NCBI RefSeq assembly: GCF_009295515.1
Contig: NZ_RQVV01000053.1
Location: forward strand, 62,001 to 126,000
Direction: 5' to 3'
DNA length: 64,000 bases
From: Erwinia endophytica
GTDB lineage: Bacteria; Pseudomonadota; Gammaproteobacteria; Enterobacterales; Enterobacteriaceae
This document shows, in pieces, positions 45,921 through 61,840 of this stretch. Position numbers and translations under genes: made by a program. The stretch's first letter is position 1. Each line of letters opens with the position of its first letter. The notes under the pieces were generated by a model. That model was not told the origin of the DNA, did no database searches, and worked only from the letters and a program-made list of their open reading frames with translations.

Positions 45921-47354
45921 ATGCGCGATATAGAATTTACCTTTAAAGGGCCGCTAATAAAACTGTCTCTGGCACTTTCAGATCTGATATTTTTTAATGC
46001 TTCTTTGTTTGTTGCGGTTTTATTAATGAATGCATTTCCGGGTAACCTGATGGGGGATATTCCGAGTCAGGATCTGCATTTAAGAATTGCGACACATATT
46101 ATCCTCTCAATTATTTGTATTGGATGGTTCTGGATCCATCTACGCCACTATACTTACCGCAAACCATTCTGGTTTGAACTTAAGGAAGTATTAAGAATTA
46201 TTCTGATATTTTCCGTCATCGATCTGGCTATTACAGCCTTGTCAAAATGGGAGTTTTCTCGCTGGATTTGGGTATTGACCTGGCTGCTGGCATTGGGATT
46301 TATTCCGGTTGGTCGTGCCATCGTTAAACGTATTCTCAATCACTATGGCCTGTGGAAGCGTCAGTCGATCATTATCGGTAGCGGTAAAAATGCAGAAGAA
46401 GCCTATATGGCGTTGCAGAGCGAAGAAGTGATGGGGTTTGATGTGGTCGCCTTCTACGACGTGGATGGGATGACTCCGGCTCCGGCACTGTTTGGCATAC
46501 CGGTCATTCGCGAAGAGGACGCTTTATGGCAGTTGGTCAACAGTGATACGCAGTTTATTGTGGCGGTGGAGTATGAGCAAAGCCGACACCGTGATTTTTG
46601 GCTGAAGAATCTGGCAAAACATCACTGTCGCTCCGTTTCCGTGGTACCTTCGTTGCGTGGTGTGCCGCTTTATGGCACTGATATGGCTTATATTTTCAGT
46701 CATGAGGTGATGATTCTCAGGGTAAGCAATAACCTGGCCAAACGTACCTCTCGCTTTGCTAAAAGGGCCTTTGATCTTATCGGCGCGCTGAGCATTATCA
46801 TCATGCTGATGCCTGCGCTGTTGGTGCTGGTCTTTATGGTTTCCCGGGATGGTGGCAGCCCAATCTATGGTCACGAACGAGTCGGTCTTAACGGACGTAA
46901 ATTTAAGTGCCTGAAGTTCCGTTCAATGGTGGTAAATTCGAAAGAAGTGCTGGAAGAAGTCCTGCGAACTGACCCGGTGGCCCGGGCAGAGTGGGATAAA
47001 GATTTCAAATTAAAAAACGATCCTCGCATTACACGGATTGGTCACTTTATTCGTAAAACCAGTCTTGACGAACTGCCACAGTTGTGGAATGTGGTACGCG
47101 GAGAGATGAGTCTGGTTGGTCCGCGTCCGGTCATTGAAGATGAGTTGGAGCGTTATGCCGGTGATGTGGATTACTACTTCATGGCTAAACCGGGAATGAC
47201 CGGCCTGTGGCAGGTGAGTGGCCGCAATGATGTGGATTATGAAACACGCGTCTACTTTGACTCCTGGTATGTAAAAAACTGGTCTTTGTGGAACGATATC
47301 GCCATCCTGTTCAAAACAATTGGCGTTGTTTTGCGGCGTGATGGTGCTTACTGA
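45921..47354 (+). CDS. amsG: Undecaprenyl-phosphate galactose phosphotransferase (WbaP family)
   Basis: Starts EPS repeat synthesis by moving galactose 1-phosphate (glucose in some relatives) from the UDP-sugar to undecaprenyl phosphate at the inner membrane. 477 residues, the length of E. amylovora AmsG. Four N-terminal helices (about 13-145) are followed by a central Rossmann-like part ([16 protein letters not shown]). A further hydrophobic segment (about 285-308) leads into the catalytic domain with [40 protein letters not shown] and GPRPV. First gene of the cluster, behind the JUMPstart leader. Donor sugar galactose is inferred from its relatives. Confidence 0.9.
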
Positions 47355-47375
47355 CAGAGGCGATTTTCCGTTGTG

Positions 47376-47395
47376 CCGGTACGCTTGCGTACCGG
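47376..47395 (+). terminator. Hairpin between amsG and wza
   Basis: CCGGTACG-CTTG-CGTACCGG is a perfect eight-base stem 21 bases after the amsG stop. The next T-rich run (CTTTTG) is about 15 bases further, so it is not a typical intrinsic terminator. In the 279-base gap before wza it may lower readthrough or protect the amsG mRNA end. Nothing else in this gap could be named. Confidence 0.4.
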
Positions 47396-47633
47396 TAGTC
47401 CTGGTGTCTTTTGACTGTTAACTGTCATTGACTAACGTGCTAAACAAACTTTTTTTGACGTATGCTAAGCATCAGTGTGATCGAAGCGGCAAGGCATAAA
47501 AAAGAGGGGGAGTTTAAAATAATGACCGACAGTAACAGAGCCTGAACATGTGATTCATTTTATTACTTTTGCATGACGCTACACTGCGGCGGACTCGCCA
47601 CTATCAATCAATTTACTGATAGCGATGATATAG

Positions 47634-48767
47634 ATGATTACAATCAAAACGAAAGTATTACCCTTGTTGATAACGGCGACACTCCTTTCTGGATGTACAG
47701 TGGTGCCCGGTTCAAAGCTTTCAACCAGTGGAAAGGATGTTATCAAGCAGCAGGATAGCAATTTCGATATTGATAAGTACGTCAATGTTTATCCCATGAC
47801 TCCAGGCCTGGTAGAGCAAATGAGTCCCAGACCCGTAGTGGCGCGGCCTAACCTGCAATTACAGACTGAACTGCAAAGCTATGAGTATCGGATCGGCATC
47901 GGTGATGTATTAACCGTTACCGTCTGGGATCACCCGGAATTAACCACGCCAGCGGGGCAATACCGCAGTGCCAGCGATACAGGTAACTGGGTTCATTCAG
48001 ATGGCACTATTTTCTATCCTTATATTGGCCAGGTTCGGGTGGCAGGACGCACGGTCCAGGAAGTGCGTAACGAGATTGCCAGGCGTCTGGCGCAGTACAT
48101 CGAGAGTCCGCAGGTTGATGTCAGCGTTGCCTCCTTCAAATCACAAAAGGCGTACGTGACCGGTGAAGTGACGACCTCCGGCCAGCAGCCGATCACCAAT
48201 GTTCCCCTGACTATCCTTGATGCCGTGAACGCTGCGGGGGGACTGACGGCTAACGCCGACTGGCGTAATGTCGTGCTGACCCATAATGGTCATGAGATTC
48301 CGATTTCTCTGCAAGCTCTGTTACAGAATGGCGATCTCACGCAGAACCATTTGCTGTACCCCGGTGATATTCTTTATGTCCCACGTAACGACAATCTGAA
48401 AGTGTTCGTGATGGGTGAAGTAAAACAGCAGGCAACGCTGAGGATGGATCGCAGTGGTATGACGCTGGCTGAAGCACTGGGGAGTTCGCAAGGAATGGAT
48501 CAGACCACTTCTGATGCGACTGGCGTATTTGTCATCCGTCCAGTAAGAGGATCTAATCGCGCGAAGATTGCCAATATCTATCAGTTGAATACCAAAGATG
48601 CTTCAGCGATGGTGATGGCTTCCGAGTTCCAATTGCAGCCTTATGACATCGTGTATGTCACCTCGACGCCATTGACCCGTTGGAGTCGTGTGGTGGCGCA
48701 GTTGCTCCCAACCATCAGCAGTGTCTACCAGTCTAGCGAAACCGCTAACATTTATCATAAATGGTAA
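47634..48767 (+). CDS. wza: Outer-membrane polysaccharide export lipoprotein Wza (AmsH)
   Basis: Forms the octameric outer-membrane pore for EPS export. 377 residues. The signal peptide has lipobox LLSGC with Cys21 as the lipidated residue. The polysaccharide export domain includes [20 protein letters not shown], then SLBB-type repeats and a C-terminal amphipathic helix ([20 protein letters not shown]) that makes the alpha-barrel in Wza. The ATG at 47634 is the only start giving the full signal peptide; its ribosome site is poor. First of the wza-wzb-wzc export trio. Confidence 0.93.
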
Positions 48768-48782
48768 GCACCGGAGCACATG

Positions 48783-49217
48783 ATGATTAATTCAATCTTA
48801 GTGGTCTGCGTCGGCAATATTTGTCGCTCCCCAACCGGGGAGCGGTTGCTCAAATTGGCGCTGCCGAATAAGAAAATCGCCTCAGCTGGATTACAGGCGA
48901 TGGTGGACCATGCAGCTGATGACACGGCAAGTCTCGTTGCCCGTGAACATGGACTATCGCTGGATGGACATGTCGCCCGTCAATTAACCTCTGGCATGTG
49001 CCGGGATTACGACTTGATCCTGGTCATGGAGAAAAAACATGTCGGGATGGTTAACCGCATCAACCCCTCCGTGAGTGGCAAGACCATGTTATTTGGCCAC
49101 TGGCTCAACCAACAGGAAATAGCGGATCCCTATAAGAAAAGCCGCGATGCCTATGAAGCCACGTACGGATTACTCGAAAACGCTGCCCAGAAATGGGTCA
49201 ACGCCTTAAGCCGATAG
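48783..49217 (+). CDS. wzb: Low-molecular-weight protein-tyrosine phosphatase Wzb (AmsI)
   Basis: Dephosphorylates the Wzc tyrosine kinase and so allows cycles of EPS assembly. 144 residues from the second of two tandem ATGs, which gives a six-base spacing to GGAG and a start MINSILVVCVGNICRSPT that matches Wzb. Catalytic CX5R is Cys9 to Arg15; the general-acid Asp is in ADPYKKS near the C-terminus. Lies between wza and wzc with short gaps. Confidence 0.94.
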   Translation: MINSILVVCVGNICRSPTGERLLKLALPNKKIASAGLQAMVDHAADDTASLVAREHGLSLDGHVARQLTSGMCRDYDLILVMEKKHVGMVNRINPSVSGKTMLFGHWLNQQEIADPYKKSRDAYEATYGLLENAAQKWVNALSR

Positions 49218-49229
49218 TTGGGATTATTC

Positions 49230-51413
49230 ATGAATATAAAAAGTAAGGCACCGTCATCGCCGGGAGAGGAGTCAACCGGGTGGGACCTGGCTCATATTGT
49301 GGGACAACTGGTCGATCATCGTTGGGTTATTGTGGCGGTCACGGCGTTATTTATGTTGTTGGGGACCCTCTACAGCCTGTTCGCCACGCCGATTTACAGT
49401 GCAGATGCCATGGTGCAGGTGGAAGATAAAAATTCCAATACGGTTCTGAATGACCTGACCCAGATGATATCAAGCGCTCAGCCGATGTCCGCGACTGAAG
49501 TGGAAATTGTGACATCGCGTCTGGTCATCGGTAAGACGGTGCATGATCTTGGTCTGGATGCGTTGGTGCAGCAGAACTATTTGCCGGTTATTGGTAAAGG
49601 CTTGTCCCGTTTGATGGGGCACAAGCCCGGACAGGTGGACATTTCTCAACTGAGTTTGCCTGCTAACTGGGAAAAACCGGTACTGCAGTTGGAAGTGAAT
49701 GGTCCTGACAGTTACACCGTCAGCAAGAATGGTAAAACGTTATTTAAAGGTAAAGTTGGCCAGTTGGAAAGCCATAATGGCGTGACCATGCTGGTTAAAA
49801 GTATTCAGCAAGCTAATCCCGGTACGGATTTTACGGTGACTAAACTTAGCGAGCTGCAGGCTATCGGCATGGTGACCAATAATTTGACGGTTGCCGACAA
49901 AGGGAAAGATACCGGGGTATTAGGGCTGACCTATCTGGGTGAAGACCCTGTGCAGATCAGCACGGTGCTGGACCAGATTATCAACAATTATGTTGCCCAG
50001 AATATTGACCGTAAATCAGCTGAAGCGCAGAAAAGTCTGCAGTTCCTGAAAGTGCAATTGCCGCAAGTACGTGAGAAGTTGGACGCAGCTGAAGACAAGC
50101 TGAATGTTTATCGCCGTAAAAATGACTCCGTGGATTTATCACTGGAAGCTAAATCCGCGCTGGATTCATCCGTCAGCATCCAGAGCCAGTTAAACGAACT
50201 GACCTTCCGTGAAGCTGAAGTATCGCAGTTGTTCACCAAAGACCACCCGACCTACCGGGCGTTATTGGAAAAACGTCAGACGCTGGAAGATGAACAAAAA
50301 CGGTTGAACCAGAAAATTGCTCAGATGCCGCAGACTCAGCAGGACATCGTACGTCTGACCCGTGACGTACAGGCTGGTCAGGAAATCTACATGCAATTGC
50401 TGAACCGTCAGCAGGAACTGAGTATCAGCAAAGCCAGCACCGTGGGGAATGTGCGCATTGTCGACCATGCTGCGACCGCCGCGGCGCCAGTGGCACCGAA
50501 GAAATTGCTGGTGATCGTTGCCAGCCTGATGTTGGGTTTAGTGGTCTCAGTGGGCTATGTCCTGGTTAAAGCGCTGTTCCACCACGGTATTGACCGTCCG
50601 GATCAGTTGGAAGAACAGGGTATCAATGTGTATGCCACGGTGCCTTTATCTGAATGGCAGCGTAAGCGGGATGTCGAAGCGTTGTCCCGGCGGGGAACAC
50701 AGATAAAAGTTGATCCGCACAACACGTTGTTGTCGTTAGGCAACCCGACAGATTTGGCTGTTGAAGCAATCCGCAGCTTGCGTACCAGTCTGCACTTCGC
50801 AATGATGGAAGCGAAAAATAATATTCTGATGATTACCGGCGCCAGCCCCGGCATTGGTAAAACATTTATCTGTTCTAACCTGGCGGCACTGGTCGCCCAC
50901 GCGGGTCAGAAAGTTCTGTTTATCGATGGGGATATGCGTCGTGGTTACACCCATGAGTTGCTGGGCGCCAGTAATAAAGTGGGGCTATCCGATGTGCTGT
51001 CAGGTAAAAAGCCTTTCGGTACAGAGATGCTGCAACAAGGTGCTTATGGTTTTGACTTTATTTCGCGTGGTCAGGTGCCTCCGAACCCGTCTGAGTTGTT
51101 GATGCATAAGCGCATGAACGAGTTGCTGGAATGGGCGAGTAAGAACTATGACCTGGTCTTGATTGATACCCCACCGATCCTCGCGGTAACGGATGCGTCT
51201 ATTATTGGTAAACTGGCTGGCACTTCTCTGATGGTCGCTCGCTTTGAAACCAACACGTTGCGTGAAATTGAAATCAGCTATCGCCGCTTTGCACAGAATG
51301 GTATTGAGGTTAAAGGGGTGATCCTTAACGCGGTGGTGCGTAAAGCCGCCAATGCTTATGGCTATGGCTATGACTATTACAGTTATGGTTATAAATCGGA
51401 TGTGAAAAGCTAA
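49230..51413 (+). CDS. wzc: Tyrosine autokinase / EPS co-polymerase Wzc (AmsA)
   Basis: Inner-membrane protein of 727 residues controlling EPS chain length and export with Wza. The N-terminal Wzz domain with TM1 (WVIVAVTALFMLLGTLYSLF) is followed by a long periplasmic helical region with coiled coil near residues 270-390. TM2 is LLVIVASLMLGLVVSVGYVL. The cytoplasmic BY-kinase has Walker A GASPGIGKTFICSN, Walker A' LFIDGDMRRG and Walker B LVLIDTPP. The C-terminal tail is a tyrosine cluster (seven Tyr in YGYGYDYYSYGY plus flanks). ATG 49230 is preferred to TTG 49218. Confidence 0.95.
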   Translation: MNIKSKAPSSPGEESTGWDLAHIVGQLVDHRWVIVAVTALFMLLGTLYSLFATPIYSADAMVQVEDKNSNTVLNDLTQMISSAQPMSATEVEIVTSRLVIGKTVHDLGLDALVQQNYLPVIGKGLSRLMGHKPGQVDISQLSLPANWEKPVLQLEVNGPDSYTVSKNGKTLFKGKVGQLESHNGVTMLVKSIQQANPGTDFTVTKLSELQAIGMVTNNLTVADKGKDTGVLGLTYLGEDPVQISTVLDQIINNYVAQNIDRKSAEAQKSLQFLKVQLPQVREKLDAAEDKLNVYRRKNDSVDLSLEAKSALDSSVSIQSQLNELTFREAEVSQLFTKDHPTYRALLEKRQTLEDEQKRLNQKIAQMPQTQQDIVRLTRDVQAGQEIYMQLLNRQQELSISKASTVGNVRIVDHAATAAAPVAPKKLLVIVASLMLGLVVSVGYVLVKALFHHGIDRPDQLEEQGINVYATVPLSEWQRKRDVEALSRRGTQIKVDPHNTLLSLGNPTDLAVEAIRSLRTSLHFAMMEAKNNILMITGASPGIGKTFICSNLAALVAHAGQKVLFIDGDMRRGYTHELLGASNKVGLSDVLSGKKPFGTEMLQQGAYGFDFISRGQVPPNPSELLMHKRMNELLEWASKNYDLVLIDTPPILAVTDASIIGKLAGTSLMVARFETNTLREIEISYRRFAQNGIEVKGVILNAVVRKAANAYGYGYDYYSYGYKSDVKS

Positions 51414-51518
51414 ATAAGTCGCCCGAAACATTTGTCAGAGACTTAGGTTTCGGGTTGTCTTTTCTGCGGTTTGGATTTTCCAGGTGATTTTATCTGGACG
51501 CAACGAAGGTATTTGGTA

Positions 51519-52418
51519 ATGAAGGATATTTTCTTCTCAATTGTCATTCCCGCATATAATGCATCCGAATCTATCGTGACGACCCTGGATTGTGTAGCTG
51601 CGCAGACTTATCAGCATTTTGAAGTGATCATTATTGATGATAAGTCCGCGGATGCTGAACGACTAGCTGAAGTGGTGAAGAACTATCCCCAACTGAAGAT
51701 TCAATTGGTCCTTTCGCAAGAAAAGCTATTTGGATCTGCAGCCCGAAATAAAGGGATTGACCTGGCGACGGGCGATTACATCTGTTTTCTTGATGCTGAT
51801 GATGAATGGCACCCAGAGAAGCTACAGGAATCGCTGAAAACTATCCGTGAACTGGACGCGCAGGGGAAAGAAAAAACCATCATTTTCAGCCAGGTGAATA
51901 TTATTCAGGATGGCCGCTTTCTGAAAGTGATGCCAATGCGGGCGCTCTCACGCAACGAAAGTGTCGCTGAATACCTGTTTGGCTGCTATGGTTTTATCCA
52001 GACCAGTACCATTGTGTTGAAGCGTGAATATGCGGAAGACATCAAGTTCGATCCACAATATATCCGCCATCAGGATTATGACTTTTGTATCCGGGCCGAT
52101 AAAAAAGGCTACGAATTTGTGATGATTGCCCAGCCACTGGCGAATTACCACCTGGTTTCCTCATTCGGTTCCAAACACAAAGGCGAATCAGTGAAATATT
52201 CCTTCTTCTGGTTAGAGAAGATGAAACCTCATTTGACTCAGCGCGATATCAATACCTACAAAGCGTATAAATTGCCGTTGCGCTATAAAATGGATGGGAA
52301 ATCACTGCAAGCGGGCGTCAGCTTTATCCGTTATTTTTTCTTAACAAATAAAGATAATCGTACCTATTTTATCAATCGTCTTAAGGATAAGGTCAGAGAG
52401 CGATTAAGTGGTAAATAG
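51519..52418 (+). CDS. amsB: Family 2 glycosyltransferase (AmsB-like)
   Basis: Cytoplasmic GT-A transferase of 299 residues adding a sugar to the lipid-linked EPS repeat. FFSIVIPAYNASESIVTTLD at the N-terminus and VIIIDDKSADAERL are the nucleotide-sugar site; FLDADDEWHPEKL is the metal-binding DxD-type motif. The ATG at 51519 is chosen over an upstream open stretch because the family N-terminus begins there and AAGG precedes it. Position after wzc is that of amsB, whose product in E. amylovora adds galactose; donor here is inferred. Confidence 0.85.
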   Translation: MKDIFFSIVIPAYNASESIVTTLDCVAAQTYQHFEVIIIDDKSADAERLAEVVKNYPQLKIQLVLSQEKLFGSAARNKGIDLATGDYICFLDADDEWHPEKLQESLKTIRELDAQGKEKTIIFSQVNIIQDGRFLKVMPMRALSRNESVAEYLFGCYGFIQTSTIVLKREYAEDIKFDPQYIRHQDYDFCIRADKKGYEFVMIAQPLANYHLVSSFGSKHKGESVKYSFFWLEKMKPHLTQRDINTYKAYKLPLRYKMDGKSLQAGVSFIRYFFLTNKDNRTYFINRLKDKVRERLSGK

Positions 52419-52460
52419 CGTTAGTTTTCATGCAAGAAAACTAGCCTCGCGGGGAAAAGA

Positions 52461-53585
52461 ATGGCCATATACTGGATAATAAGCTATACGCTGCTCGTTT
52501 TTTGTATCTTTGAACTGGCCTCGATTAACCAGTTAACACAGCCGAAAAATCGATGTGTCATTACCTATTTCTTTTTTATCGGGACCGTTATTCTGATCCT
52601 TTTTGCCGGTATGCGAGGACCGGGATCAGGGATAGATGACTGGCAGTACCTTGGTTTTTTCCACGATTTCTCCAGACAGACCAGCATGGAAGGTTATGCG
52701 ACGGTAGCGGATGTTTATCGTTACGAAAACCTGTTTATGCTCCTGGCCTGGGTGCTGGGTTGGTTCACTCACCAGAGTTACTATTTTCTGTTGTTCGTGG
52801 CTTTTATCGCGGTAACAACTAACGCCTTTATTTATAAAAAATATTCTCCGTTGATTTTATGTTCGCTGTGCCTGTATTCAGCCCATCTGTTTATCAACAA
52901 GGATATGAATCAGATCCGTTTTGGGTTGTCGAGTGCTTTTGCCGTGGCGTGTATCTGCACTGCTGCGGGCAGAAAGTATCTGTTGGCGATAATTTTTCTG
53001 CTGTTGAGCAGCCAGTCGCACTCAACCGGTTACGCTTTATTAATTGTGACGCCATTTCTGTTCCTGAAAGAACGTAAGTACTTTGGTGTAGCGATGGTGA
53101 TTGCGGCTATTCCATTAGGGTTGATCGGTGGGAAAAAGCTGTTTCTTGACTCGCTGGGGATTGTTCCATCGCTTGGTGACAGGGCTATGGGGTACAGCGG
53201 AACCAATTTCGACGTGGCTTCCCCGGTATTTGGTCTGGCTAACCTGAAGAACATTGCCTTTATCGCCTTTTTTACTCAGGTTTATTTCCGTAAAACGATT
53301 GAACCTAAAGATCGGCTGGCGTATATATTGCTTATTGCCTATTCCGCCGGGGCTGCCGTGCGTATTGTTTTCTCCGATTTCTCCATCCTCGGGGGAAGAG
53401 TGGGCAATTTATTCCTGCACACGGAGCCATTATTATTGGCGCTGATTATGACACGTATCAGGAACCCGTTGTTCAACATTGCACTGTTGTTCGCGATGAC
53501 GACGTATTATCTGGCCTACAATACCATCCTCTCGGTGCAGTCGATTGACGGTTACAGTATTGCGCCGTTCTTCAGGATTTTTTGA
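52461..53585 (+). CDS. amsC: EPS polymerase, EpsG/Wzy type (AmsC-like)
   Basis: A 374-residue integral membrane protein with about ten to eleven helices. It shows the EpsG-family pattern LFAGMRGPGSGIDDWQYLGF after the second helix and NKDMNQIRFGLSSAFAVACI in the middle, the region common to Wzy-like EpsG polymerases. It is expected to join repeat units on the periplasmic face of the inner membrane. As usual for polymerases the overall sequence is poorly constrained; family and position (that of amsC) carry the call. Confidence 0.85.
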   Translation: MAIYWIISYTLLVFCIFELASINQLTQPKNRCVITYFFFIGTVILILFAGMRGPGSGIDDWQYLGFFHDFSRQTSMEGYATVADVYRYENLFMLLAWVLGWFTHQSYYFLLFVAFIAVTTNAFIYKKYSPLILCSLCLYSAHLFINKDMNQIRFGLSSAFAVACICTAAGRKYLLAIIFLLLSSQSHSTGYALLIVTPFLFLKERKYFGVAMVIAAIPLGLIGGKKLFLDSLGIVPSLGDRAMGYSGTNFDVASPVFGLANLKNIAFIAFFTQVYFRKTIEPKDRLAYILLIAYSAGAAVRIVFSDFSILGGRVGNLFLHTEPLLLALIMTRIRNPLFNIALLFAMTTYYLAYNTILSVQSIDGYSIAPFFRIF

Positions 53586-53657
53586 TTGACTGGCCAGCTA
53601 TCTGGCCTTTTTTATTGCTAGTTTTTTGACTTTCATGATTTATATGCAGGGTATCAG

Positions 53658-54410
53658 ATGAACAATCAATTCGGCACAGTAGGTATTATCATCCCTATGT
53701 ACAACGCGCGTGATACTGTTTTACGTGCGGTACAGTCGGTTCTTGAGCAAACCTGGACGGACTGGAGAGTCTATCTGATTAATGATAAATCAACCGATGA
53801 TTCACTGGCTCTGGTGCAGGAGCATTGCCGCGATCCTCGGATTACTATCCTGAGTAACGAGGTGAATCTGGGGGTGGCCGAGACCCGTAATGTTGGCCTG
53901 AACGCTGCCACTGAAGAGTTTATCGCTTTCCTCGACAGCGATGATGAATGGGAAAAAGACAAGTTGATGTTGCAGGTGCAAGCGCTGGCTGCGGGTGACA
54001 ATTTGATTATCTCCCATTACGGTTATAAATCCCGCACCAAAGCTTATGACGTTACCTACAGCAAACCTTATCTGCTGAAAGAGAATTTTGTGAAAAAGCA
54101 GTTTCGCATCTGCTTCTCTTCCGTCTGTTATCGTCGTCCGGTACGCAATATCACTTTTCAGAAAAAGGGACATGAGGACTTTTTATTCCTCTATGAATTA
54201 TTTGAGCAATATAAGCAGGCTCGCGTTATCGAACAAAATCTGGTTATTTATTATGAGCTGGGTGATTCACTGTCGCGTAATAAAAATAAAGCGGCGAAGT
54301 GGCATCTTGATTTATTAAAATTCATCTATAAAAATAACTCGCTGAAAGTCTATTATTATTATCTTTGGTACATGGTTAATGGCGTTCTGTTCACATTGAA
54401 GCACAGATAA
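53658..54410 (+). CDS. Family 2 glycosyltransferase
   Basis: A 250-residue GT-A transferase. GIIIPMYNARDTVLRAVQSV begins the nucleotide-binding fold, LINDKSTDDSL and FLDSDDEWEKDKL give the metal/nucleotide site, and GHEDFLFLYELFEQY contains the ED pair typical of the acceptor-side catalytic region. It could correspond to E. amylovora AmsE or to one of the Pantoea Wce transferases. However, it lies before, not after, the GT4 gene, so I give no symbol. Adds one sugar of the repeat unit; donor unknown. Confidence 0.82.
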   Translation: MNNQFGTVGIIIPMYNARDTVLRAVQSVLEQTWTDWRVYLINDKSTDDSLALVQEHCRDPRITILSNEVNLGVAETRNVGLNAATEEFIAFLDSDDEWEKDKLMLQVQALAAGDNLIISHYGYKSRTKAYDVTYSKPYLLKENFVKKQFRICFSSVCYRRPVRNITFQKKGHEDFLFLYELFEQYKQARVIEQNLVIYYELGDSLSRNKNKAAKWHLDLLKFIYKNNSLKVYYYYLWYMVNGVLFTLKHR

Positions 54411-54534
54411 CCTGCCGGGCTTGAAACGTATCGGTCTTGCAATGACAAATGTCGCAGCCTTTCCTGAATGTGGGCATTGATTGCCTGGCGAGACAGACTT
54501 TTAACATTGATGTGATTGAGGTGGCGAGTCCACG

Positions 54535-55569
54535 ATGAAAAAAATAGTGCTGGTGATTAAAGACGCTTATTCCTATGCCGGAACCGAAAATATTTGTAAC
54601 TTCATGTCTGAGTGTTTGGGTGATGACCATGAAGTGAGCGTTTATTCCCTGGAAGGCGCGGGGAAGCCATTTTATCCGTTTAACAAGGTTAAACAGATGG
54701 TCAGTTTTCAGGGTGAAAAAAATCCTATCCGCAGTGCAGTAAAGCGGATTAATCAGGAAGGTTTCGATGCGGTGTTTTTAATCAGCATGGGCCGCCTGAG
54801 TGTGATGTTCGCGCTGTACAGCATATTATCGCTGAAAAAGAAAAAGGCGAAAACCTACGCCTGCGAACATATTGCAATTAACTCCTTCAGTAAACCGATT
54901 AAGTTCCTCAAATATCTCTTTCTGCGTTATTACGACCGTGTCATCGTGTTGACCGATAAAGACCATGCCGTATTTACGCAGTGGGGCATCCCAAGTAAGA
55001 CTATCCCTAATCCTGTGGTGTACAAAAATTTTCAGCGCACTGAACGCAAGTATCAGGCGCTGGCCGTGGGCCGTCTTGATTTCCAGAAAGGCTTCGACCT
55101 GCTGCTGGATATCTGGCAGGGCTTCCAGGCGACTAATCCGGACTGGAAACTGGTCATCGCCGGTGACGGCGAATTGAAAGATCAACTGATCGCTCAGGCA
55201 GCGGCACTGAACATTTCGGACAGTGTGGCCTTTGTTGGTCGGGTCTCCAACATCAATGACTACTACCGTGACAGTGATATGGCCTTAATGACCTCGCGTT
55301 ATGAAGGTTTACCGCTGGTTTTACTGGAAGCTAAATCCTGGGCGTTACCCGTTGTAGCCTATGACTGCCCAACCGGTCCGCAGGAAATCATCAATAACAA
55401 TGAGGATGGTTTCCTGGTGGCAATGAATGATCGTGCCAGCTTTATTGAAAAAATGCACCAACTCGCGCACAACGATGCGCTGTTTTATGCCATGAGTGAA
55501 AAAACAAAAACAACGTCACTTAAATTCGACGGCAAGATTATTAAAGAAACCTGGCTTTCGCTGGTTTAA
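54535..55569 (+). CDS. Family 4 glycosyltransferase (AmsD-like)
   Basis: A 344-residue GT-B transferase. The N-terminal acceptor domain contains KDAYSYAGTENI. The donor domain has VGRLDFQKGFDLLLD, KLVIAGDGELKDQL and the EX7E-type motif TSRYEGLPLVLLEAKSWALP. E. amylovora AmsD is of similar length and family, but there it precedes amsE, while here the GT2 gene comes first. A 124-base gap upstream is longer than usual in this cluster. Adds one repeat-unit sugar; donor unknown. Confidence 0.83.
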   Translation: MKKIVLVIKDAYSYAGTENICNFMSECLGDDHEVSVYSLEGAGKPFYPFNKVKQMVSFQGEKNPIRSAVKRINQEGFDAVFLISMGRLSVMFALYSILSLKKKKAKTYACEHIAINSFSKPIKFLKYLFLRYYDRVIVLTDKDHAVFTQWGIPSKTIPNPVVYKNFQRTERKYQALAVGRLDFQKGFDLLLDIWQGFQATNPDWKLVIAGDGELKDQLIAQAAALNISDSVAFVGRVSNINDYYRDSDMALMTSRYEGLPLVLLEAKSWALPVVAYDCPTGPQEIINNNEDGFLVAMNDRASFIEKMHQLAHNDALFYAMSEKTKTTSLKFDGKIIKETWLSLV

Positions 55570-55631
55570 AAATACCCCTCTGGAATTTACATTCACGCCG
55601 CAACGGCACTAATGACTATGGGATTACATGA

Positions 55632-57848
55632 ATGAAAAGAAGAGAATTAATTACTGGGTTCTCATCGATTCTTGCAGCCCTTTCTGTGAGTTCGTTTTCC
55701 AGCCAGGCCGCTAAAAAAGACGCTTCCGTTTCGATGACTGACGTCAATGCTGGCGATATACCGAAAGATGATGTTCCTATTCTGACGCCGGAAAACATCT
55801 ACGCCATGCCAGAGCGTTTCTGGGAAAATTTCAGCGGGAAACTCTATATCGGTAAGGCCGGGACAGACCCGACCCAGGCCGGCAATCTGATCGATGTGTT
55901 CCTGCGTAATGCTGATGGCAAACTTTCTAAAATTGCGCAGCCGGTGGCGCTTAACCGGGGAAATTTCCAGACATTTATCGCTGATAACGCGGCGCTGATA
56001 GCCAACCCTGTTCACTCGATGGCGGTGCTGGATGACAACGGCCATGTCCTGTTCAATATTCCTGATATCAGTCGTCTGGCGGCGAATAACTTCAGTCAGC
56101 GTCTGGTTCAGCCGGCAGGTTATCAGTTGATTGGAGAAATCAGTTCAGTAAACGAACTGCGTAAGACCCGGCCGCTGTTTGAAGGGGCGAAGGTGAAACT
56201 CAGCAGTTGGCACGAAGGACGAGAACAGGGCGGCGGCGAGTTCGTCGGCAGCTTCAGCCCTGCCACGGACGATGGTGGGGTGACCTTCGCCGGTGCCGGT
56301 TTCCACTGGCGTCGCGTGGTGCAGGATTTTAATCGTCTGACCCTGTTTGATTTTGGGGCGATTGATGACGGTAAAACGGATACGGCCCCAGCTGTCAGAG
56401 CAATGTACAACTGGTCACGGAAAGCGGATCAGCCCATTTGTGTGCAATTTCCCGCGGGAACCTTCCTCGTCAGCGGTTGTGATTTCTCGCAAGAGGAGAC
56501 GCGCTTTTTCCGGGTGTCCGGGGCAATGGTCAACTTCGGCTATTTCCCGGCCACCACCATTGTCTCTGACGGCAAATCCGACTTTGTTTTTGAGGTCAAT
56601 AGCCGTTGGGTGGAGATTGGCAACCTTATTTTTAACGGTCGCGCTGACCATCATCCCAATGAGCAGGGCTTTTTTAACAATAAATGCCCGGGGGGCCAGT
56701 ATTTCCGTGGCGCCTGCCTGTATTTTAAGGCGGTAGGCGGTACTTCGCTGAGCTTGATGGATACCCTCGACTGCAAGATTGATCAGTGGTATGCCAGTAA
56801 GTGTACGGGGGACGTGATCAAATCCGTGTGGTCAGGGCAGAAAACGGGTAAGTGGGATCACAGTACCGCCATTGAGTTATCCAACTTCAATGCTCAGCAC
56901 TGTAGTAAAGGGATGGTACTGAACCTGGATCGCTGTAGTCAGTCGATTATCCATAATGGCTGGATTGAGCATTCGGAAAATCCGGGCAACATCTCGAATG
57001 GTCAATGGATCATTGATGCGCTGAGCATTGAAACCTGTAAAAACCCGCTGATTGCGCATAACTCTCGTTTGAATATGCGCCAGACCAACTTGCAGGCCGG
57101 AAGCTGGATTGATAACTCGCGCGCTGAAGGTGCCTGGTTGAGTGCTTTTGAACAAGGCTCTACACGAGTGGAGTCCTATGGTATCGCTGTTGACGGCAGC
57201 ATGAAGTACAACTACCTGCTCTCACGCTTTCGTCTGGTGAATAACAGTAATCAGGAAAAATGGATCGAGCTCGGTAACATCTTCACCCCGGAAGTCGGTG
57301 ATAGTTGGGAAATTGAGATTATCGGCCAGGCCGGTTTCAGTAACGGGACCGACCAACAAACGCTGGAAAAAGTGGTGGGAGGGGCCGCTACTGGCGGCAA
57401 AGCGATGATCAATCTGCAGCGGAAAACACATAAGTTTGAAGCCAACTGGCATGCTGAAGGCGCCAGCCCCATCGTCGACGTAATGATTGAGACGCCTTAT
57501 GACACCGATGCCCGCGTTTATGTCAAGCTGGCTGGCTGGTTAGCGTCTGCCGGCGTGTTGATGAAGTCCACCGCGAAAGATCGTTTTATGACCGGCGCCT
57601 GTGCACGTTTCGACAGTAAAATGGCGGAAGTTAAACAGCCAGCTGGCGCGAATGTTCACCGGGCGGTTCAGCGTTTTACTTTGCACAATGGTAAGGCGGG
57701 GATAGGCGCCAACGAACAGGGGGATGTACTGATGCAGTCGCGAGTGCTGAATGCTGACGAGGTGGATATCTCAAAGGCGGCAGGCTACGTTTCCATGGTC
57801 ATTAACGGCCAGCAGGTGGCTGTGCCTTATTTCGCGATCAAGAAGTGA
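55632..57848 (+). CDS. amsF: Exported tailspike-like EPS protein (AmsF/WceF family)
   Basis: A 738-residue protein. The signal peptide carries Arg-Arg at residues 3-4 (MKRRELITGF) and an AQAA-like end (SSQAA) near 27. Residues 60-148 resemble the head-binding domain of phage P22 tailspike: GKLYIGKAGTDPTQAGNLI corresponds to P22 GKIYIGQIDTDP..., AQPVALNRG to TQPLIINAAG, and HSMAVLDDNG to HSMAIYDANG. A Gly-rich linker (HEGREQGGGEFVGSF) follows. Then comes the start of a right-handed beta-helix, LFDFGAIDDGKTDTAPAVRA with VQFPAGTFLVSG, the pectate-lyase/tailspike pattern, and a C-terminal beta domain. Pantoea stewartii WceF was reported to have a phage tailspike-like fold and to modify stewartan biofilm. 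So the likely role is EPS cleavage or processing outside the cytoplasm. Confidence 0.85.
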   Translation: MKRRELITGFSSILAALSVSSFSSQAAKKDASVSMTDVNAGDIPKDDVPILTPENIYAMPERFWENFSGKLYIGKAGTDPTQAGNLIDVFLRNADGKLSKIAQPVALNRGNFQTFIADNAALIANPVHSMAVLDDNGHVLFNIPDISRLAANNFSQRLVQPAGYQLIGEISSVNELRKTRPLFEGAKVKLSSWHEGREQGGGEFVGSFSPATDDGGVTFAGAGFHWRRVVQDFNRLTLFDFGAIDDGKTDTAPAVRAMYNWSRKADQPICVQFPAGTFLVSGCDFSQEETRFFRVSGAMVNFGYFPATTIVSDGKSDFVFEVNSRWVEIGNLIFNGRADHHPNEQGFFNNKCPGGQYFRGACLYFKAVGGTSLSLMDTLDCKIDQWYASKCTGDVIKSVWSGQKTGKWDHSTAIELSNFNAQHCSKGMVLNLDRCSQSIIHNGWIEHSENPGNISNGQWIIDALSIETCKNPLIAHNSRLNMRQTNLQAGSWIDNSRAEGAWLSAFEQGSTRVESYGIAVDGSMKYNYLLSRFRLVNNSNQEKWIELGNIFTPEVGDSWEIEIIGQAGFSNGTDQQTLEKVVGGAATGGKAMINLQRKTHKFEANWHAEGASPIVDVMIETPYDTDARVYVKLAGWLASAGVLMKSTAKDRFMTGACARFDSKMAEVKQPAGANVHRAVQRFTLHNGKAGIGANEQGDVLMQSRVLNADEVDISKAAGYVSMVINGQQVAVPYFAIKK

Positions 57849-57986
57849 TGTTCTCGGGGACTGGGGGAGACTGTTCCTGAATTTTGTCGGAGCGCTTTGA
57901 CAGGGGGGCTCCGTATTAAGATAAAAATTTGCGCCGGGTGAAATAATTAGTTCGAAAATAGACTTATTTATCAGCATTTTATTGGT

Positions 57987-58019
57987 GGTTTATTCCTGCG
58001 GGATAAACCGTCTTTTTCT
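57987..58019 (+). terminator. Terminator-like hairpin inside the EPS operon before amsJ
   Basis: GGTTTATTCC and GGGATAAACC form a ten-base stem (one U-G pair) with a three-base loop, followed by GTCTTTTTC. This is a good rho-independent layout only about ten bases before the amsJ ribosome site. In an RfaH-controlled operon such an element would set the ratio of early to late genes. Another weaker stem, CGGAGC/GCTCCG (57889-57914), lies earlier in the same 180-base gap. Confidence 0.6.
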
Positions 58020-58028
58020 GGAGTGTTT

Positions 58029-59270
58029 ATGAGAATTTTACTAGTTGGCAATCATACCTGTGGTAACCGTGGTGATGGCGCAATATTACGCGGTCTTATT
58101 GATTCGCTTAATCTGGCAAGGAATGACCTCGAAATTGAGGTAATCAGTCGCTATCCAACCAGTTCAGGTTACCTGCTCCAGCAGAAAATCATGCCGGATG
58201 AACTGTTCCTTGAGACCAAAAAAGGGAAGAACAAGATGACCGATAAGGTCAAACGCCGTCTGATGCCGAAAATTATGATGGCTCACATCAGTGGTCGCGG
58301 CTTTTTTAAGTTTTTCTCTGTTCCGCCATATTTGCAGGATTTTACCAATAAATTGCGGCAGTATGATGTGATCATTCAGGTTGGTGGTTCATTTTTTGTC
58401 GATCTGTACGGCCCGTTGCAGTTCGAGCACGCGCTGTGTGCGTTGCTGGCGAAAAAGCCGATCTTTATGGTGGGTCACAGCGTGGGGCCTTTCCAGAAAG
58501 AAGGATTCAACAAAATTGCTAACTTTGTATTTTCTCGCGTTAACAGTCTGGTGTTGCGTGAGAGCGTCAGCCTGGAGATGATGAAGCAGGGCAATATCAC
58601 CACAGAAAAAGTGATTTCCGGTGCTGACACTGCCTTCCTGGTGCGTACCCGTTCTATCGAGCAGCCGGGGCATAATCTGTTGCACTGGCAAAAACTGATC
58701 GCCTCGACAAAAACCATTTTTGTCACCGTTCGCCAACTGGCTCCTTTCGATAAACGCCTTGGCGTCACCCAGCAGGAGTACGAGATAGCCTTTGCTAACG
58801 TTATCAATGCGGTTATCGATAAGGGATATCAGGTTGTGGCGTTATCAACCTGCACCGGTATTGACAGCTACATAGATGATCGGATGGTGGCAATGACACT
58901 GCGCGATCACGTGGTACAGAAAGACCAATATCATGTTGTGATGGATGAGTTTAACGACCTGGAACTGGGTATTCTGCTGGGTGAGGGGCATCTTACGATT
59001 GGCACCCGCTTGCATTCGGCAATCATTTCAATGAATTTTGGTACACCAGCTGTCGCCATCAATTACGAGCACAAATCTCTGGGGGTGATGAACCAGCTTG
59101 GTCTGCCAGAGATGTCTTCGGATGTGAAAAGCTTGATGGATGGCTCGCTCATTAACAAAGTTAACGACATCCTGGAAAATTATGATGTGATTAAACAGCA
59201 GGTTGCCACCGCGGTCGCTCAGGAGCGGGTACGTGGTAATAAAATCACTGAAGACGTTGTCAGAGCTTAA
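58029..59270 (+). CDS. amsJ: Polysaccharide pyruvyl transferase family protein AmsJ
   Basis: A 413-residue protein of the pyruvyl transferase family (relatives WcaK, CsaB) that puts a pyruvate ketal on a repeat-unit sugar from phosphoenolpyruvate. GT-B-like features: VGNHTCGNRGDGAILRGL at the N-terminus, IIQVGGSFFVDLYG and FMVGHSVGPF in the middle, and the C-terminal LTIGTRLHSAIISMNFGTP with the conserved Arg-x-His typical of the family. The ATG at 58029 is preferred to GTG 58023 (GGAG six bases before). Amylovoran and stewartan both carry pyruvate, so the assignment fits. Confidence 0.88.
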   Translation: MRILLVGNHTCGNRGDGAILRGLIDSLNLARNDLEIEVISRYPTSSGYLLQQKIMPDELFLETKKGKNKMTDKVKRRLMPKIMMAHISGRGFFKFFSVPPYLQDFTNKLRQYDVIIQVGGSFFVDLYGPLQFEHALCALLAKKPIFMVGHSVGPFQKEGFNKIANFVFSRVNSLVLRESVSLEMMKQGNITTEKVISGADTAFLVRTRSIEQPGHNLLHWQKLIASTKTIFVTVRQLAPFDKRLGVTQQEYEIAFANVINAVIDKGYQVVALSTCTGIDSYIDDRMVAMTLRDHVVQKDQYHVVMDEFNDLELGILLGEGHLTIGTRLHSAIISMNFGTPAVAINYEHKSLGVMNQLGLPEMSSDVKSLMDGSLINKVNDILENYDVIKQQVATAVAQERVRGNKITEDVVRA

Positions 59271-59279
59271 GGTGAACAG

Positions 59280-60503
59280 ATGAAACTTACGTTTTTCACA
59301 ATGCGTTTTCCGGTGGCATCTGAGACCTTTGTTTTGAATCAGGTGACGTATTTTATCGATCAGGGCTATGACGTCGAGATTATTTCCGTCTTTCCTGGCG
59401 ATCTGGCTAACCGGCACGGTGCGTTCGACCATTATCGTCTGGCAGAAAAGACGCACTATCTGTTGCCGGAAGACAGTACCTCAAATGCGGAAAAGCTCAG
59501 GCAGCGCCTGAAAATTATGCTGCCGAAAATATTCAGTCCCAGGACGCTTCGTTCACTGAATATCAGTCGTTATGGCGCTCAGTCCAGCAAGCTTCTGTTG
59601 CCAGCGATTGTCGCCGGCGCGAAACAGACTTTTACTGCTGATATTTTCCTGGTGCATTTTGGCTATGCGGGGGCGCTGGCGAATAAACTGCGTGAGCTCG
59701 GTGTGTTACGGGGTAAACAGGCAACAGTGTTCCATGGCGCTGACATTTCCCGTCGTCATATTCTCGAAGAGCATAAGCAGGATTACATCAACCTGTTTCG
59801 CCAGAGCGAGCTGTTGTTGCCGATCAGCCATTTGTGGGAAAACAAACTGATCGCCATGGGATGCCCTCCGGAGAAAATTCGTGTTACGCGGATGGGGATT
59901 GAGCCAGAAAAATTCAATCTGAACGTTCGCGAGGGGCTGCATTCGCCGCTGCGCATCGTTTCAGTTGCACGTCTGACTGAGAAGAAAGGTTTGGGTGTTG
60001 CGGTGGAAGCCTGCAAATACCTGAAAGAGCAGGGCGCCAACTTCGAATACACCATCATTGGCAATGGTGATATGGAAGAAGAGTTGCGCATGGCCATCCA
60101 CTCAGCCAACCTGCAGGATCATGTGCAGCTATTGGGGTTTAAGCCACAGGAAGAGATCAAACGCCATCTCGACGAGGCGGATATTTTTCTGTTGCCTTCC
60201 CTCACTGCGGCGGATGGGGATATGGAAGGGATCCCGGTGGCGCTGATGGAAGCCATGGCTGTCGGCCTGCCAGTGGTCTCCAGCTACCATAGCGGTATTC
60301 CCGAGCTGATTGAAAATAACGTCTCAGGCTGGCTGGCTCCGGAAGGTGATGCCAGAGCGCTGGCCGGTATACTGTTAAAACTGGCGAATAGCGATGTGGA
60401 TATCGCACCTGTTATTGCGGCGGCACGTAAAAAGGTGGAAGTGGAATTCAACCAGCACATTGCCTATCGTCAGTTGGCTGAACTCCTGGAGCAATTAGCG
60501 TGA
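59280..60503 (+). CDS. amsK: Family 4 glycosyltransferase AmsK
   Basis: A 407-residue GT-B transferase, the length of AmsK. The acceptor domain starts MKLTFFTMRFPVASETFVLN (WcaL-like). The donor domain has VSVARLTEKKGLGVAVEACK, YTIIGNGDMEEEL and the nucleotide-sugar motif DMEGIPVALMEAMAVGLPVV with the EX7E acidic pair. AAGG precedes the ATG. It overlaps wzx by four bases (GTGA). Adds a late sugar of the repeat; in E. amylovora AmsK is proposed to be a galactosyltransferase. Confidence 0.88.
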   Translation: MKLTFFTMRFPVASETFVLNQVTYFIDQGYDVEIISVFPGDLANRHGAFDHYRLAEKTHYLLPEDSTSNAEKLRQRLKIMLPKIFSPRTLRSLNISRYGAQSSKLLLPAIVAGAKQTFTADIFLVHFGYAGALANKLRELGVLRGKQATVFHGADISRRHILEEHKQDYINLFRQSELLLPISHLWENKLIAMGCPPEKIRVTRMGIEPEKFNLNVREGLHSPLRIVSVARLTEKKGLGVAVEACKYLKEQGANFEYTIIGNGDMEEELRMAIHSANLQDHVQLLGFKPQEEIKRHLDEADIFLLPSLTAADGDMEGIPVALMEAMAVGLPVVSSYHSGIPELIENNVSGWLAPEGDARALAGILLKLANSDVDIAPVIAAARKKVEVEFNQHIAYRQLAELLEQLA

Positions 60504-61840
60504 GTAGTTTAAAGTCACAAGCCGTATGGCTTTTTGGCGGCACCTGCTTTGCCGCTGTATTACAGGTGGTGCAGTTAGGCGTGTTGGCACGCAAGCTGGA
60601 GACGCATGAACTGGGTATCCTCGCGATAATCAACGCGATTCTCGCGGTGGCGATGGTGCTGCAAGACATGGGGATGAGTAGCTACGTCGTTCACCGACAG
60701 AATATAACCCGTAAAGAGCAGAGCACTATTTATTGGGTGAATGTGCTATTGAGCCTGCTGACCGGTTTGTTGTTGATCGCAATTGCCTGGCCGATCGCTC
60801 ATTTTTACCATATTCCGCGATTAACCGGACTGATTATGCTGACCAGCCTGAATTTTTTGGTGCTGGGGTCGCTGTCGCAATATCAGGCGCAATTTATTAA
60901 AGCCAAGAAAATGGTGTTGTTGGCGAAAATAGAAATGGCCACTAAATTTCTGGCCTTTCTGTTTACTGTCGGAATGCTTTATTTATCTTCACTCAGTGTT
61001 TCGGCCGTCATACTCGGATTATTTGCGAATGCCGCTATGCGTATTCTTTGCATGATTTGGTTGGGTGAAAAATCCTGGCGGCCAACATTCGAATTTGATA
61101 AGACAACTTTTTTCAGCTCGATTAAATATGGCGTTTATCAGTTAGGTTCCCAGACAATTAACCAGTTGCGTACTCAGGCTGATTCATTAATTGTTGGTAA
61201 GGTGATGGGCGCGGATATGCTGGGTGTTTACTCACTGGCGAAAGAGCTGATATTGCAACCGTTGAAGCTGGTGTCGCCGGTGATTAACCGCCTGGCCCTG
61301 CCTCGATTTGCCGAAAAACAACATGAACCGCAGCAGTTGCAGCAGCTGTTCCTGAAGGGAACTTTCGCGATCATGCTGTTCAGTAGCCTGATGTATCTGG
61401 CGATTGGCATTCTGTCGCCGGTTATCGTGCGGATGCTCTATGGCGCGTCACATGAAGCGGTGGGGCATCTGATCCCGCTGATGTTGCTGTTTGGGATGCT
61501 ACGCCCAATGGGCGGACTGACTGGCGCAATTTCCCAGGCCAATGGACGCACTAACGTCGAATTCTACTGGAATGTGGTGGCCAGCATCATTGTGGTGTTG
61601 GTACTGGCGACCACGTGGGTTTATCCAAATGTCTGGTATGTGGCGCTGACGCTGTCGATTTCCCAGGTGCTAATTTCCACTTTTGCTCATCCGTTCTTTA
61701 TCCGACCCGTAATTGGTATTCGCTTTTTGCCATATGCCCGTCAGTGGATTTCGGTTTCAGTGGTGTTTGTCGGGATCATCGCGTTAGTCAGTTATTATAA
61801 TTTATTCGTCAGGCCCGAATGGTTTAGCGGTTGGTGGTAA
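60500..61840 (+). CDS. amsL: Wzx-type EPS repeat-unit flippase (AmsL)
   Basis: A 446-residue MATE/MOP-superfamily protein with about 12 to 14 helices. It moves the lipid-linked repeat unit to the periplasmic face of the inner membrane. The Polysacc_synt motifs VHRQNITRKEQSTIYWVNVL and GVYQLGSQTINQLRTQADSL are typical. Translation starts at GTG 60500, which overlaps the amsK stop (GTGA) and follows GGAG by eight bases. Last gene before a clear terminator, so it probably ends the main EPS transcript. Confidence 0.88.
   Translation: MSSLKSQAVWLFGGTCFAAVLQVVQLGVLARKLETHELGILAIINAILAVAMVLQDMGMSSYVVHRQNITRKEQSTIYWVNVLLSLLTGLLLIAIAWPIAHFYHIPRLTGLIMLTSLNFLVLGSLSQYQAQFIKAKKMVLLAKIEMATKFLAFLFTVGMLYLSSLSVSAVILGLFANAAMRILCMIWLGEKSWRPTFEFDKTTFFSSIKYGVYQLGSQTINQLRTQADSLIVGKVMGADMLGVYSLAKELILQPLKLVSPVINRLALPRFAEKQHEPQQLQQLFLKGTFAIMLFSSLMYLAIGILSPVIVRMLYGASHEAVGHLIPLMLLFGMLRPMGGLTGAISQANGRTNVEFYWNVVASIIVVLVLATTWVYPNVWYVALTLSISQVLISTFAHPFFIRPVIGIRFLPYARQWISVSVVFVGIIALVSYYNLFVRPEWFSGWW

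Follow-up and report, generated by a model that had tools for sequence, protein, structure and literature searches.

The window analyzed here is a 64,000-nucleotide stretch of the Erwinia endophytica genome (assembly GCF_009295515.1, contig NZ_RQVV01000053.1, positions 62,001 to 126,000), in which Pfam matches in 10 open reading frames define an EPS cluster on the forward strand (45921..61840, +). This cluster, which we take to be of the amylovoran/stewartan type, encodes a sugar transferase, Wza, a LMW phosphatase, Wzc, glycosyltransferases, an EpsG-type polymerase, WceF, a pyruvyl transferase, and a Wzx-type flippase. The wceF/amsF open reading frame itself is intact (55632..57848, +; 738 aa). 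It is preceded by a glycosyltransferase gene in the amsE position (54535..55569, +; PF00534) and followed by a polysaccharide pyruvyl transferase gene in the amsJ position (58023..59270, +; PF04230), so that EPS genes flank it on both sides, and not the phage genes that would surround the tailspike gene of a prophage. This setting recurs among relatives. When named genomes were scanned by pattern, a method whose reach is limited to close relatives, 65 loci came up, 55 of them wceF at an identity of at least 60% (L033-L087); both upstream glycosyltransferases have homologues at all 55 of these loci, and the pyruvyl transferase at 51.

Nothing sets the encoded protein apart within its family, which is unusual but already published. 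Its residues 1-737 match 6tgf, the WceF of Pantoea stewartii, with an E-value of 0 (phmmer against PDB sequences), and residues 129-735 correspond to PHROG 4250, "EPS depolymerase" (E 7.7e-194, profile search); NCBIfam assigns it no family, and PF12708 matches only part of the beta-helix, below its own cut-off (E 3.2e-5). In an unrooted tree of 73 rows the catalytic part of WceF forms one clade (38 rows, support 100/98), the 38 rows remaining after 93 distinct WceF sequences were reduced to 64 complete ones and then cleared of near-copies. Together with the full-length match and the position in an EPS cluster, this clade identifies the window protein as a WceF orthologue. The P. stewartii copy (L060; PDB 6TGF) is 67.6% identical to it and shares its cluster neighbours and its MKRR start; it belongs to another species and is the one whose structure and activity are known.

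The protein opens with a probable Tat signal peptide at about residues 1-28 (55632..55715, +). Measured against the twin-arginine consensus of Tat signals, the relevant features are the MKRR start, present in all 65 distinct WceF orthologues of at least 690 aa, and a hydrophobic stretch. Searches of Pfam and NCBIfam gave no TAT profile match for this signal; TatC is encoded in the E. endophytica genome. Use of the Tat route by the window protein is what we infer from these features, and a Tat signal is stated for P. stewartii WceF in its published description (Irmscher et al., 2021; PMC7949094). Behind the signal and the head domain discussed below follow a neck at about residues 166-230 (56127..56321, +), which phage depolymerases have as well, and a parallel, catalytic beta-helix at about residues 236-514 (56337..57173, +), both with limits adopted from P. 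stewartii WceF in PMC7949094, and a C-terminal triple-helix, sandwich, and stem region (57180..57845, +), placed by homology to 6tgf and by the domain order given there. The tailspike-type beta-helix that the first-pass annotation had described after the head is in place, as published for P. stewartii WceF.

That annotation had also placed a P22-like head at residues 60-148 and had proposed a profile comparison with PF09008 (Head_binding). The comparison returns a significant match (E 9.7e-18; 64.9 bits over a curated cut-off of 24) and moves the beginning of the domain upstream, to residues 48-148 (55773..56075, +; profile positions 8-108 of 113). Eight P22-type PDB chains (7sg7, 2vky, 8eb7, 2vnl, 1lkt, 8tvr, 2xc1, and 5gai) align by phmmer from residue 48 or 49 to an end between 143 and 161, with E-values from 4.3e-13 to 1.4e-8. 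Identity to ten named phage heads is 28-34%, and the GKxYIG...DP and QP...N positions of the P22-type head (1lkt, 2xc1, 8tvr) are also kept in WceF. Unlike the phage domain, the WceF head stands behind a Tat-type signal, precedes another enzyme, and has one block, residues 109-124 (55956..56003, +), fully replaced. Within the genus, PF09008 has 29 matches in 26 of 37 genomes, and 26 of the 29 are wceF. The three elsewhere (L208, L209, and L234, in two genomes) are probably prophage tailspikes. In the E. endophytica genome the same profile search of the 37 genus genomes found no PF09008 match beyond WceF.

The head, the beta-helix, and a phage origin of WceF are already in print, so that their presence here is no new discovery. 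Irmscher et al. (2021, JBC) described for P. stewartii WceF a P22-like head, a trimeric state, and hydrolysis of stewartan, and proposed descent from a phage; hydrolase activity on host EPS is thus established for the P. stewartii protein only, and mutants of that species make longer EPS (PMC7949094). What the present comparison adds is evidence on the head itself, kept under selection, apparently rebuilt, and once lost, together with phage tailspikes that bear a similar leader and paralogues linked to lysis genes, for the last of which we claim no novelty in print.

The view that WceF is a captured tailspike, which the first-pass annotation had put forward, gains support from these comparisons, in line with the origin proposed in PMC7949094; the phage-to-bacterium direction is an inferred one, the trees being unrooted. 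The WceF heads form one clade (29 of 54 rows, support 100/100; the 54 were kept from 146 distinct heads) on a long branch of 2.28 changes per column with no trusted phage neighbour in this unrooted tree; because the trees are unrooted and the WceF heads sit on such a branch, they leave direction and donor unresolved. The converse, that phages took the head, the hydrolase, or both from bacterial EPS enzymes, would be compatible with unrooted trees and with a hydrolase tree whose rows are mostly bacterial. We regard it as unlikely, given that the phages bearing the hydrolase differ widely from one another and fall at several places in the tree (the label "phage" changes four times over eight rows), that the P22-type head is present in 175 phage records, and that a trimer built of head, neck, and helix is a tailspike design.

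The donor phage is missing from this picture, because none of 11 phage hydrolases tested, Zoomie, Frozen, and Vid5 among them, carries a P22-type head; PF09008 was absent from all 10 that were scanned with Pfam. The EPS depolymerases of Erwinia and Pantoea phages (PHROG 4250; PhiEaH1, phiEaP8, Special G, and others) resemble WceF in neck, helix, and C-terminal region but, unlike WceF, show no such head in the 11 proteins tested. WceF matches 386 phage records, with 32-40% identity among the 60 matches listed. Eight phage records cover at least 80% of the full-length query, the best of the five among the matches listed reaching 81%. With residues 48-420 as query, 13 phage records cover at least 80%, and the nine among the matches listed all start at residue 87 or later. 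Among the matches listed of the 386 records, no phage combines a P22 head with a WceF-type hydrolase, which falls short of proving absence, and a scan of viral contigs with the whole of WceF as query found no relative. Erwinia phage Zoomie (L313 2087-4660) combines a T7-type tail-fibre N-terminus with a WceF-type hydrolase of 28% identity to WceF, to all appearances another swap of the anchoring part.

How the WceF head differs from phage heads can be read from a comparison of 80 distinct phage heads with 66 WceF heads. Of the columns aligned to WceF, 49 are invariant to 95% or more in phages. Seventeen of these columns persist in 80% or more of the WceF heads and 25 in fewer than 20%, a pattern other than that expected of a functional virion adaptor, which would retain the phage-invariant residues. 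The losses are unevenly spread. Block 66-88 keeps six of its 12 phage-invariant positions and has lost three, and block 109-124 has lost all 10; at positions such as L71, G77, L107, F115, and D145, WceF heads hold their own residue at 98-100% where phages hold another invariant one. Judged from the alignment, this pattern fits a fold that was kept and a surface that was changed. We do not call block 109-124 the docking surface, because the residues of the P22 head that contact the virion were not found among the papers listed, and passages of PMC3966878 and PMC12724387 do not name them for P22.

It could be supposed that WceF still docks on P22-like virions or tailocin-like particles, as a decoy or by pseudotyping induced prophages, and the 17 retained columns, as well as the three PF09008 matches outside wceF in two other genomes of the genus, offer it some footing. 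Docking nonetheless appears less likely now, the indirect argument being that the block at 109-124 has been replaced at every phage-invariant position; WceF is moreover exported, away from the site of virion assembly, and E. endophytica encodes no other PF09008 match. We consider this proposal very improbable.

The head is nevertheless under selection. Its median dN/dS is 0.046, as low as that of the catalytic helix (0.052), over 65 orthologues with 282 to 317 of 320 pairs usable, depending on the region; synonymous sites are near saturation (median head dS 1.37), so these values are rough. A head-profile match is found at 54 of the 55 named wceF loci. WceF was present in 28 of the 147 genomes searched; in all 28 the alignment began at residue 1 and ended at 737 or 738, and one copy has an internal stop. 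Two broken copies among the 55 (L083 and L085) still carry the head piece, and L073 and L086 are shortened elsewhere. The hosts of broken or shortened copies (L022, of the same family, L083, L085, and L073) include P. brenneri, Ca. P. haifensis, and a stink-bug symbiont. The single departure is that of Pantoea sp. A4 (L076 5866-7770), in which the whole head is gone in frame and the signal runs straight into the neck. Since this copy keeps signal, neck, helix, and cluster without the head, WceF cannot depend strictly on that domain in every host.

Such an in-frame loss beside an intact cluster is what would be expected if the head were a relic that no longer does anything. We find that reading quite unlikely in view of its low dN/dS, its retention at all other named loci, and the aggregation of P. 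stewartii WceF constructs that lack it, reported in PMC7949094. The first-pass annotation had seen no obvious use for a virion-attachment domain in a bacterial EPS operon; these constructs partly answer it. A more serious alternative is that the head binds a specific partner, be it Wza, Wzc, peptidoglycan, the outer membrane, or EPS, and that this is the main reason for its retention. The low dN/dS, the WceF-specific residues, and the aggregation of P. stewartii WceF with stewartan (PMC7949094) all speak for an anchor of this kind, against which stand the natural loss in Pantoea sp. A4 and the want of a known partner, PMC7949094 giving no localization of WceF. We view it as a possibility that deserves weight, though one we do not favour.

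The reading that we prefer, at a probability of roughly 0.7, is that WceF is a captured tailspike that now serves as a Tat-exported trimmer of EPS, its head retained for assembly and solubility of the trimer, perhaps also for retention of the enzyme, and no longer as a virion adaptor. On this view the line began with a phage tailspike that combined a P22-type head with a neck and an EPS-hydrolase beta-helix; a single capture, in a forebear of these plant-associated bacteria, would have brought it into the EPS cluster, where it became fixed. WceF would fold and trimerize in the cytoplasm, pass the inner membrane by the Tat route, and slowly cut the EPS of its own cluster, trimming chains during or after their export. 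The head, formerly a virion adaptor, would have been kept to assemble and solubilize the trimer, and may in addition keep the enzyme attached to the envelope or within the EPS matrix.

A comparable arrangement occurs on tailspikes of genuine phages. Of 80 viral contigs with P22-type heads, these being the best 80 of at least 499 such relatives, seven have, in frame and ahead of the normal phage start, a twin-arginine-like leader with the sequence MKRRTLLKSLLGLTSLLPVKFAASQN or one close to it; a scan for the leader pattern found 10 viral contigs, including the earlier seven. The leader also occurs in Escherichia phages CurroJimenez_Bas106, Louie, and APC_JM3.2 and in E. coli A30, with phages Dewey and Huey among the matches listed for it; it is rare in E. 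coli, where four of 5426 genomes hold at least 80% of a query made of leader plus head. In the three named Escherichia phages, which have a MKRRTLL leader, it stands directly before the P22 head, as in WceF; they differ from WceF in an unrelated enzyme part, in a conserved inner start codon, and in heads that lie not specially near those of WceF. As a source of the WceF head these coliphages receive no support from the head tree. Annotation places the beginning of the coding sequence at the leader for Bas106 and Louie, but for APC_JM3.2 and E. coli A30 it chooses the inner start. No TAT profile matches the leader-bearing phage proteins, three of which have no NCBIfam family, and the literature, among the matches listed, contains no tailspike with such a leader besides WceF (PMC7949094).

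The leader, conserved as MKRRTLLKSLLG, was read at 21 loci, representing 14 distinct sources (L130, L137, L138, L155, L158, L170, L195, L237-L240, L246, L248, and L250) and five alleles, and it precedes different enzyme parts (P0002 versus P0003). One pair of alleles differs at eight codons, all eight synonymously; another, L130/L246, shows seven non-synonymous against three synonymous codon changes, which counts against the leader. Variable sites fall at codon positions one to three in the numbers 9, 1, and 12 over all alleles; over four alleles the leader has 6, 1, and 12, and the stretch of 60 bases before it 2, 5, and 5. Two of the five alleles have a weak outer ribosome site (-1.0 kcal/mol in L130 and L239), and in L137 and L155 that site reaches -5.5 one base off the start, whereas the inner site (-3.9 at 8 bases in all five alleles) is better placed. 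The simplest reading of these features is that the leader-bearing tailspike may be a dual-start gene.

A second route from tailspike to host enzyme is suggested by relatives of WceF that lie near lysis genes. The E. endophytica genome has three of its own besides WceF: a prophage fibre (L002), a lone hydrolase of 638 aa (L003), and a neck-only match (L004). The prophage fibre carries an EPS hydrolase module (L117 8360-10570; contig 49, from about 16 kb) at 42-43% identity to WceF, and the tail genes of its prophage, in the gene order of L117, are presumably P2-like. Around the lone hydrolase (L262 10612-17837; contig 49, within 368000-387000), genes for LysR, the EPS hydrolase, GH18, LPMO, a holin, and a lysozyme are adjacent, a locus that we take to resemble the holin-dependent chitinase release locus of Serratia.

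Across 28 genomes, paralogues occupy 66 places, of which 51 places in 50 loci were counted; one protein of clade A and one of clade B served as references, the higher of the two scores deciding each assignment, and L284, L288, L292, L296, and L298 reach only 49-54% identity to the clade A query. A division into types A and B by length of the N-terminus was contradicted by the tree for L095, L100, L104, L107, L108, and L110. Clade A paralogues, from Erwinia, have neither signal nor head. A phage-type endolysin gene is found in 29 of their 37 loci, always on the same strand and upstream of the hydrolase at a gap of 56 to 2093 bases (median 911), and is lacking in eight; holin and Q are each found in 24 of the 37. 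Just upstream of the hydrolase in 16 of the 37 lies a full set of CI-like repressor, Q, endolysin, holin, and spanin (L263, L265-L269, L275, L279, L281, L283, L286, L287, L289, L291, L293, and L294), the components having been matched in one or two loci each to Q PF06530, lysozyme PF00959, holin PHROG 1356, Rz-like spanin PHROG 1275, and repressor PHROG 4. Twenty-one of the clade A loci lie near LolC (10), CheV (13), or a conserved 464-aa protein (21), and 16 lie elsewhere. Lysozyme and holin occur in four and one, respectively, of 13 loci outside clade A, and queries with the lysis genes matched none of the 55 wceF loci.

Taken together, these observations allow a broader reading, which we offer tentatively and with a little less than even confidence: phage tailspikes would repeatedly become EPS enzymes released by the host. 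In some a Tat-type leader would be set before the P22 head, as in WceF and, independently, in living P22-like coliphages whose dual-start gene could give rise to a virion spike as well as an exported depolymerase; in others head and leader would be dropped and a phage lysis module kept or borrowed, either as CI-like repressor, Q, endolysin, holin, and spanin beside the hydrolase, frequently at a single site on the Erwinia chromosome, or as the GH18/LPMO/holin/lysozyme locus of E. endophytica. For the question of what the head does, its natural loss, the evidence of selection on it, and its one rebuilt block provide precise targets, and Tat-like leaders on real phage tailspikes provide a testable model for the passage from virion protein to exported enzyme. 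The paralogues linked to lysis genes suggest that several EPS-cutting enzymes of plant-associated bacteria may be freed by means of phage-derived lysis genes, and such release, if true, would bear on biofilm dispersal and on exposure to phages.
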